A DNA stretch of 64,000 bases, taken from assembly GCA_027532905.1 (NCBI GenBank), contig JAPZUA010000001.1:975950-1039949 (forward strand), read 5' to 3'. Source of the DNA: Magnetospirillum sp. Lineage in GTDB: Bacteria > Pseudomonadota > Alphaproteobacteria > CACIAM-22H2. The position numbers and the translations under genes are program-made. Position 1 is the first letter of the stretch. Each line of letters opens with the position of its first letter. The notes under the pieces were generated by a model. That model searched no databases and was not told where the DNA came from. It saw only the letters and a program-made list of their open reading frames with translations. Positions 37,695 through 39,372 of this stretch are shown here, one piece after another.

Positions 37695-38687
37695 TCAGAA
37701 CCAGCCGCGTTTCTTGAAATAGAGATAGGGCAGGATGGCCGAGGCGATCATGAAACCGATCGCCATCGGATAGCCGAAGCTCCAATCGAGCTCGGGCATG
37801 GATTTGAAGTTCATGCCGTAGACCGTGCCGACGAGCGTGGGCGGCATCAGCACGACCGAGACGACCGAGAACAGTTTGATAATGCGGTTCTGCTCGATAT
37901 TGATAAGGCCCAGCGTGGCGTCGAGCAGGAAGTTCACTTTGCGGCTGTCGAAATCCGCGTGTTCCATGAGCGAGGTCAAGTCGCGGTTCAGCGACTTGAA
38001 GCGCGCATGCATGTCTTTCGACTGTTTTTTGGTTTCGCCCTCGGCCGAGGCGTCGAGGAAGCGGACAACGCGCTGCAGGCCCAGCATGCTCTCGCGCGCG
38101 GTCGAGCACAGATCTTCGATGCGGCCAAGCTCGCGCAGCACGTCCTGCATCGAGCGTTCTTGGGCCGCTTGCGCCGTCGGGCGCGCGGGATTCGCGAAAA
38201 TCGTGCGCGAGATGCCGTCGAGGTCGGAGCCGGCTTTTTCCAGAATGTCGGCGATGCGGTCGACGAAAGAATCCATCAGGCCGATCATCGCCTCTTCGCC
38301 GTTCGCACAGCTGCCCGGCAGGCGCAAAAGGCGCGTGGCAAACTGCGTGACCGGGCGCGGGTCGTGGTAGCGGACGGTCACGAGGCAGCGATTGGTCAGC
38401 ACGAAGGTGAAGGCGTCGGCCGTCGGGTTCGGATCGTCGGCGCGCGCCAGGATCGTCGCCGTCATGTAAAGCGCGCCGTTTTCCGAATAGAGCCGCGCCG
38501 ACGGTTCGATCTCGAGCATTTCGGCATGGGTCGGGATCGCGAGATTGAACGCCGCATCGACGCGCGCGCGATCCTCCGGGGTCGGCGAATAGAGATCGAT
38601 CCACAACGCCGCCGTAGGTACGGGATCGGTCGCACCGATTTCGCGTTTGACGATCGTGCCGTCCTGGGGGAGATACGCAAAAATCAT
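37695..38687 (-). CDS. CorA-family divalent metal ion transporter (second copy)
   Basis: Second CorA-type channel (330 aa), only distantly similar to the copy at 25722-26726. It has the GMN triplet at residues 291-293 in YGMNFKSMPELDW, an aromatic/basic tail YFKKRGWF, and a cytoplasmic domain starting MIFAYLPQDG. This N-terminal type is common among alphaproteobacterial magnesium transporters. Its 3' end abuts the Ldh2 gene (one base apart, convergent). Its 5' end faces the gcrA promoter region. Confidence 0.92.
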   Translation of the reverse strand: MIFAYLPQDGTIVKREIGATDPVPTAALWIDLYSPTPEDRARVDAAFNLAIPTHAEMLEIEPSARLYSENGALYMTATILARADDPNPTADAFTFVLTNRCLVTVRYHDPRPVTQFATRLLRLPGSCANGEEAMIGLMDSFVDRIADILEKAGSDLDGISRTIFANPARPTAQAAQERSMQDVLRELGRIEDLCSTARESMLGLQRVVRFLDASAEGETKKQSKDMHARFKSLNRDLTSLMEHADFDSRKVNFLLDATLGLINIEQNRIIKLFSVVSVVLMPPTLVGTVYGMNFKSMPELDWSFGYPMAIGFMIASAILPYLYFKKRGWF

Positions 38688-38753
38688 GGCCGCTCAATTT
38701 CATACTTTGCGCCCGCGTGCAATCGCAGCGCGGCCGAATCAAGATATAGCGAG

Positions 38754-38762
38754 TTACCCACA
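38754..38762 (+). promoter_or_regulatory. DnaA-box-like site upstream of gcrA
   Basis: TTACCCACA differs at one base from the DnaA consensus TTATCCACA. It lies about 20 bases upstream of the -35 of the candidate gcrA promoter, in the usual position of an activator. It partly overlaps the first ACAA-N4-TTGT repeat. Confidence 0.35.
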
Positions 38763-38816
38763 ACCTATTGTGTCTGGACCTTGACTTGGGCGACTCGATT
38801 GCTCACAATATGTTGT
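38760..38816. promoter_or_regulatory. Paired ACAA-N4-TTGT inverted repeats at the gcrA promoter
   Basis: ACAACCTATTGT (38760-38771) and ACAATATGTTGT (38805-38816) share the same ACAA-N4-TTGT half-site layout and lie 45 bases apart. The first is upstream of the -35 and the second overlaps the -10 of the candidate gcrA promoter. This looks like a pair of operators for a dimeric regulator. The regulator is unknown. Confidence 0.4.
38781..38809 (+). promoter_or_regulatory. Candidate gcrA promoter with a GANTC site in the spacer
   Basis: TTGACT (38781-38786) and CACAAT (38804-38809) are 17 bases apart. The spacer contains GACTC (38792-38796), a CcrM methylation site, and another GANTC (GAATC) is at 38736-38740. 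GcrA itself binds methylated GANTC sites near sigma-70 promoters, so this arrangement suggests methylation-dependent autoregulation. Confidence 0.5.
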
Positions 38817-38829
38817 ATTGCAAGTGGAG

Positions 38830-38838
38830 TTATCCACA
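38830..38838 (+). promoter_or_regulatory. Perfect DnaA box in the gcrA leader
   Basis: TTATCCACA is an exact match to the strong DnaA consensus. It lies 21 bases downstream of the candidate -10 and 48 bases before the gcrA ATG. In Caulobacter DnaA activates gcrA; the downstream position here could equally repress, or serve a second promoter. Confidence 0.5.
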
Positions 38839-38886
38839 ACAGCTATGTCGAGCCGGAAAACCGGCAGTAAATCAAGGGGATGCGCA

Positions 38887-39372
38887 ATGGATTGGACGCC
38901 AGAGCAAATTTCAGACCTGACCCGCCTGTGGGGCGAAGGTCTGACGACGGCTGAAATCGGCAAGCGCCTAGGCATTTCCAAGAATGCGGTTGTAGGCAAG
39001 GCCCATCGCCTGCATCTGCCCGCACGCCCGTCGCCGATCAAGCGCACGGGTCCGCGCCCGGCGGTCTACCGCCCTGCAACGCCGCGCCAGCCCGCCGCCC
39101 CGCGCGCACCCCAAGCGCCGCGCGAACCGCGCGCGCCCTCGCAATCCGCGCAGACGAGTGCGGCCGCCTTGCGCGCCCTTGCCAACCAGCCTTCGGCCAA
39201 GCGCATGCCGATGATGGCGCTGTCCGCAAGCACCTGCCGCTGGCCGATCGGCGATCCGGGCGACACCGAATTCCATTTCTGCGGCGAGCGCTCGCTCGAC
39301 GGCAAGCCCTACTGCTCGGCGCATGCCTCGATCGCCTACGTCAAGATGAAGCCGCGGACCGAAGCCGCCTGA
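38887..39372 (+). CDS. gcrA: Cell-cycle transcription regulator GcrA
   Basis: Alphaproteobacterial regulator (161 aa) that binds sigma-70 RNA polymerase and methylated GANTC sites to set S-phase gene expression. The N-terminal DNA-binding domain is unmistakable: [15 protein letters not shown], then [12 protein letters not shown] and [13 protein letters not shown] Pro/Ala/Arg-rich linker spans about 50-95. The C-terminal sigma-interacting domain contains [17 protein letters not shown] and [11 protein letters not shown] 38887 follows AAGGGGATG. Its promoter region carries GANTC, DnaA and inverted-repeat sites. Confidence 0.96.

Follow-up and report, generated by a model that had tools for sequence, protein, structure and literature searches.

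The upstream region of gcrA in the window, by which we mean the whole 64-kb stretch of DNA that was analysed, is probably a sigma-70 promoter that carries an operator for NrdR, the (d)ATP-sensing repressor of ribonucleotide reductase (RNR) genes. The gene runs from 38887 to 39372 on the forward strand, with its ATG start at 38887 and a match to PF07750 of 132.9 bits. A promoter scan of 38650-38950 returned a single promoter-like match (1 against a shuffle mean of 0.3), TTGACT-N17-CACAAT at 38781-38809 on the forward strand, which agrees with the -35/-10 pair proposed in the first-pass annotation. Its -35 element occupies 38781-38786 and its -10 element 38804-38809. All other sites named in that annotation were likewise found in place by direct reading of the sequence. 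The predicted NrdR box B (TCACAATATGTTGTAT, 38803-38818, forward strand) spans the predicted -10 and thus overlaps the predicted RNA polymerase site, and it encloses the second of two ACAA-N4-TTGT repeats (ACAATATGTTGT, 38805-38816). The predicted box C (CCACAACAGCTATGTC, 38834-38849, forward strand) lies 31 bp from B and overlaps the DnaA box TTATCCACA (38830-38838, forward strand). Upstream of the promoter stands site A, an NrdR-like box (CCACAACCTATTGTGT, 38758-38773, forward strand, score 15.6) built around the first repeat (ACAACCTATTGT, 38760-38771), and 21 bp from A there is a possible further box Z (AATCAAGATATAGCGA, 38737-38752, forward strand, score 12.1). The two repeats had been ascribed at first pass to an additional, unknown repressor. 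Judged from the sequence, that repressor is most likely NrdR.

NrdR binds two 16-bp palindromic boxes joined by a linker of 15-16 bp, which places the box centres 31-32 bp apart (PMC12176259, PMC12051234). Linkers of 24-27 bp are bound better or worse depending on the protein (PMC12176259, PMC12051234), and a single box is not bound by the published NrdRs, two being needed (PMC12051234). Like the RNR operators of E. coli (nrdAB, nrdHIEF, nrdDG) and S. coelicolor (nrdRJ, nrdAB), the gcrA region carries two CWA-N4-TWG palindromes at 31-32 bp over a promoter. Unlike them it precedes a cell-cycle regulator, has an extra site A upstream and, in the clade of the window, a degenerate box C. Box B (CAATATGTTG) fits the NrdR core CWA-N4-TWG, has an AT-rich centre and scores 19.6 against a matrix made only of six E. 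coli NrdR boxes and their reverse complements. With this E. coli-only matrix it is the top-scoring single box of the window, and the 14-mer CAATATGTTGTATT (38806-38819) is common to it and the E. coli nrdDG oligo. For the B/C pair the score is 23.4, while the best pair of the window away from the gcrA promoter reaches 5.7. One point against NrdR is box C itself. In the clade of the window its left arm is intact, but its right arm is without the key G and the box scores 3.8 alone, whereas two boxes are required by the published proteins.

The same type of box is found at the RNR genes of this genome. We scanned 464 kb, made up of the window and 20 further stretches, two of which were chosen for their RNR loci; this is 11% of the genome, so that further NrdR targets may exist. 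The gcrA pair ranked first, followed by a pair 32 bp apart at the long RNR gene (21.1), the gcrA region in another register (18.2), an unassigned pair (15.3) and nrdJ (14.7). Of the six single boxes that score at least 13, five are found at gcrA or ahead of RNR genes. Exact matches to CACWATATNWWGT occur at two places in the genome, at gcrA and at C1:551607, the latter directly before an open frame that looks like an adenosylcobalamin-type (class II) RNR, nrdJ, and matches PF02867; the box there is CCACAATATCTTGTGG. With one mismatch allowed the same string had 11 matches and its reversed control 10, so that the number by itself is uninformative. One of these one-mismatch sites (CACAACATCTTGT, C4:155096-155108; L134, L198) stands just before a gene that looks DsbA-like and is followed by smc. 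We considered ccrM as the owner of this site and rejected it, as ccrM lies at C4:192233, and no NrdR pair was found at ccrM of this genome (9.7). A strong NrdR-like box with a weak partner 31 bp away was also seen at C1:1505853-1505899 (ATTCAAGATATAGGAC, 15.0).

Among the genomes of the genus, related boxes precede the long RNR gene in nine of nine read, and nrdJ in eight of the nine with an upstream region read, the exception being G009. In the window genome the upstream region of the long RNR gene (C6:77260-77391, L169) holds several NrdR-like boxes, including the 32-bp pair, and farther upstream most of the genus has box-like strings spaced by about 19 bp. Over 41 RNR upstream regions from relatives and other members of the class the best pair ranged from -6.5 to 29.6, and among these the nrdJ upstreams of several members from outside the genus held no pair. 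At two class I RNR upstreams (L181 in G005:C10, L182 in G009:C85) a stretch resembling a cobalamin riboswitch was noticed by eye just downstream of the NrdR-like pair. DnaA-like GGATAA strings lie close to the NrdR box in four nrdJ upstreams (L142, L148, L146, L157), so nrdJ and gcrA may share control by DnaA plus NrdR. For comparison we scored dnaA in 30 genomes selected by the strength of their gcrA pairs. One was dropped for its short upstream region; none of the other 29 reached 15, and the average was -1.5. The regulator itself is encoded by an intact-looking nrdR gene at C2:1153264 (TIGR00244, 186.4 bits). Its translation, counted by hand, keeps D15, R17, R26-29 and R37, which are DNA-contact residues in S. 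coelicolor NrdR (PMC9110341), and has Q rather than R at position 12.

The first-pass annotation had looked to conserved site spacing for support, and in an alignment of 11 gcrA upstream regions of the genus the 31-bp distance between B and C is kept in ten. Conservation in this alignment is highest at the repeat sites and the DnaA box: the column mean is 0.91 for site A, 0.93 for box B and 0.99 for the DnaA box, against 0.60 for the -35/-10 spacer, 0.59 for the upstream stretch 38700-38735 and 0.70 for the -35 stretch, where the alignment is shifted. The conserved islands are TTACCCACAA-N4-TTGT (site A), TTGAC, CACWATRTGTTGT (box B), TTATCCACAA followed by CTA (the DnaA box together with box C) and the stretch preceding the start codon. 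By eye, TTGAC keeps a position 23-25 bp ahead of the start of box B in the sequences of the genus and the family. Box Z is conserved in only part of the genus (0.65). Box B is kept in ten of the 11 members, with a variant TTTTCCACA in G006, and is degenerate in G004, which has no B/C pair (2.1, P 0.32). In this genome (L011), which retains site A and the DnaA box, box B reads CAGTATGTGG and stands 33 bp from box C. The right half of box C is CTAT in the clade of the window (G000, G002, G003) and CTAG in most of the genus, namely in seven members that have box B (G001, G005-G010) and in G004 without it.

The pair extends well beyond the genus. GcrA was found in 98 of 153 genomes drawn from the class, and in eight of nine further family members the best pair stands at 31 bp. 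A pair at 31-32 bp with P < 0.01 against 400 shuffles is present in 73 of 115 gcrA upstream regions (10/11 in the genus, 9/9 in the rest of the family and 54/95 in other members of the class). The lowest possible P was reached by 61 of the 115 at 31-32 bp and by 10 to 28 at seven other spacings. These off-phase spacings score high too because one strong box lifts every pair, and therefore we rely on a test that is conditioned on the best box. When each family contributes a single gcrA upstream (77 upstreams, 50 of them with a box of at least 9, the background leaving out 30-33 bp), partner boxes occupy 18 of 192 positions at 31-32 bp compared to 28 of 3937 elsewhere (Fisher 4e-13). A larger, redundant set of 184 upstreams, many of them from Acetobacteraceae and one a repeat (L111), includes 138 with a box of at least 9. 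Here partner boxes of at least 6 were found at 47 of 260 positions at 31 bp, 18 of 260 at 32 bp and 10 of 258 at 33 bp; every other distance between 17 and 62 bp gave 0 to 6.

The gcrA region also stands out within longer loci. In 51 of 63 named loci of at least 7 kb it holds the best 31-32 bp pair of the locus, where length alone predicts 2.6%; at six other spacings it was best in 25 to 38 of the same loci. Ten of these 63 come from the genus or family of the window and repeat genomes that carry a G handle, while the per-family set is without repeats. At the loci of Acidocella and similar members the second box covers the start codon (CCACAATATGGAGTGG), so that part of the match is owed to the codons themselves.

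The pair is patchy at the level of the class. P is at least 0.05 in 36 of the 115 upstream regions, and 41 of the 95 class members outside the family miss P < 0.01. The link is thus lacking in many families, even though nrdR was found in 77 of the 80 genomes examined for it (79 from other families of the class, and G012). In the three that lack nrdR the pairs have P from 0.04 to 0.13, none below 0.01; this is in line with a role of NrdR, though three are too few for proof. On a quick tree of 54 GcrA proteins, 35 of them with the pair, presence and absence require at least nine changes; when the labels were shuffled 200 times, the mean was 15.8 and the lowest value 10. Being below all shuffles, this number indicates a pair that is passed on by descent but in a patchy manner; the tree does not separate gains from losses. 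Several entries were set aside: L186-L188 (G014, G018, G020), where the start was not found by motif, and L097 and L031, where the gene start is missing; G021 is represented by L190. L009, with 48 bp of upstream sequence, was left out of the pair scoring and of the best-box and per-family tests. Also left out were the below-cut-off matches of G023 and G108, second GcrA-like matches, and G024 with its two GcrA fragments.

Which other factors could account for these sites? The alternative that survives best is a different dyad-binding repressor with a CACAA-N4-TTGTG site at A, and perhaps at B, in the genus. Site A indeed keeps its arms in 11 of 11 members while its four central bases vary (CCTA, TCTA, CCCC, GCCC, TCGC), and it has no central AT. 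Its distance to B is 44-47 bp, counted by eye and variable between species, which is unsuited to NrdR and outside the published spacings; A-B was therefore rejected as an NrdR pair. However, the TTACCCACAA-N4-TTGTG string recurs in the nrdJ promoter of the window genome, and B and C fit NrdR without any further protein. We therefore regard a second repressor of this kind as unlikely.

Less probable still is an autoregulation of gcrA by its own product. In Caulobacter, GcrA acts at CcrM-methylated GANTC promoters. The first-pass annotation had suggested that gcrA may be tied to methylation, with DnaA and an unknown repressor acting in addition, an arrangement that could coexist with control by NrdR. 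The genome does encode GcrA and a CcrM-like methyltransferase, and one GANTC (GACTC, 38792-38796) lies within the promoter spacer, another (GAATC, 38736-38740) upstream. However, GANTC occurs at chance level: it is found in 7 of the 11 upstream regions of the genus, where 4.7 would be expected, and in 30 of the 77 families, where 28.2 would be, and its position shifts between species. Thus, GANTC was rejected as a conserved element and the proposed tie to methylation is unsupported by conservation. In terms of sequence, the region is without the conserved GANTC of a GcrA/CcrM-dependent promoter, and both copies are probably incidental.

The proposed link of gcrA to DnaA is supported. All 11 genus members hold a TTWWCCACA string, ten of them as the exact box TTATCCACA, and so do 12 of the 77 families, where 0.26 would be expected. 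The near-perfect box at 38754-38762 (TTACCCACA, one mismatch to TTATCCACA) was confirmed as a string in all 11 members, but it is fused to the left arm of the inverted repeat in site A, and its reading as a DnaA site is therefore doubtful. That DnaA alone, through sites of the type TTATCCACAA, explains the conservation, with the repeats as by-products of DnaA boxes that contain CCACAA, is the least probable of the three alternatives: no block is better conserved than the DnaA box, and gcrA is activated by DnaA in Caulobacter (PMC3193534, PMC8203912), but box B is conserved as a dyad without a DnaA box, four members of genus g7 (G016, G019, G021, G022) keep the 31-bp pair without TTAT before box C, and the 31-32 bp peak recurs among families of which few have a DnaA-like box. 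Chance can be rejected as the origin of the repeats. The 4.26-Mb genome contains only 21 copies of ACAA-N4-TTGT, against 44 of the reversed control pattern, and two of the 21 sit 45 bp apart, both before gcrA and with conserved arms.

If NrdR acts at gcrA, it would do so with a familiar geometry: box B lies on the predicted -10 and box C 31 bp downstream, about three helical turns, as at RNR promoters. NrdR loaded with dATP would then repress gcrA together with the RNR genes at high dATP. Replication forks would deplete dATP, NrdR would let go, and gcrA and RNR would be released jointly, so that GcrA would be made during DNA replication. The direction of the effect and the response to nucleotides are taken here from NrdR elsewhere. 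Since the DnaA box overlaps box C, DnaA could activate gcrA while keeping NrdR off C. We put forward more tentatively, as an idea that may well turn out wrong, that NrdR serves as a dNTP checkpoint across much of the Alphaproteobacteria, with GcrA rising only while forks consume dATP, and that the composite site in the lineage of the window makes binding of DnaA and NrdR mutually exclusive.

NrdR has been described as an RNR-specific repressor (PMC9110341). As gcrA is not an RNR operon, it is an unusual target rather than a different operator. DnaA and NrdR sites within one promoter are also a feature of E. coli nrdAB, where DnaA is among the further regulators of nrdA (PMC12176259) and DnaA boxes have been described (PMC8203912); the promoter described here differs in that it precedes gcrA and in the overlap of its DnaA box with an NrdR box. 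An NrdR box at a gene outside nucleotide reduction has a precedent in topA of P. aeruginosa, a proposed target with one box that was doubted in PMC12051234, while gcrA has a spaced pair in many families. The gcrA promoter of Caulobacter crescentus has one DnaA box and is activated by DnaA (PMC3193534); we saw no report of its control by NrdR. In the available parts of the literature on NrdR together with gcrA, Caulobacter, CtrA or an alphaproteobacterial RNR regulon we found no control of gcrA by NrdR, PMC12186491, PMC5343134, PMC2500167 and PMC10483419 included, and papers that name both draw no link between them in those parts. As far as the main text of PMC5343134 was available, gcrA is not among its NrdR targets.

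If gcrA is under a conserved NrdR operator, the master cell-cycle circuit would take the dATP level as one of its inputs, and this would account for the way in which the synthesis of GcrA might keep step with ongoing replication. Many Alphaproteobacteria would then tie this master cell-cycle gene directly to the supply of dNTPs. In Caulobacter, excess dNTPs delay entry into S phase and lengthen G1, independently of CtrA and with unchanged DnaA levels (PMC12186491), and a link between NrdR and gcrA turns this delay into a testable question; GcrA is absent from the main text of that paper as far as it was available. Deletion of nrdR in Caulobacter gave 10% more spreading in soft agar, which was read as a longer swarmer phase (PMC12186491), and simple derepression of gcrA would not predict this. 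Within our set, the GcrA nearest to that of Caulobacter (63% identity) is that of G083, whose gcrA has a weaker pair (17.8, P 0.0025). The genome of the window also encodes a second protein with a GcrA-like domain (C2:152780-153034, L002; 39.9 bits), in an open frame of 253 amino acids.
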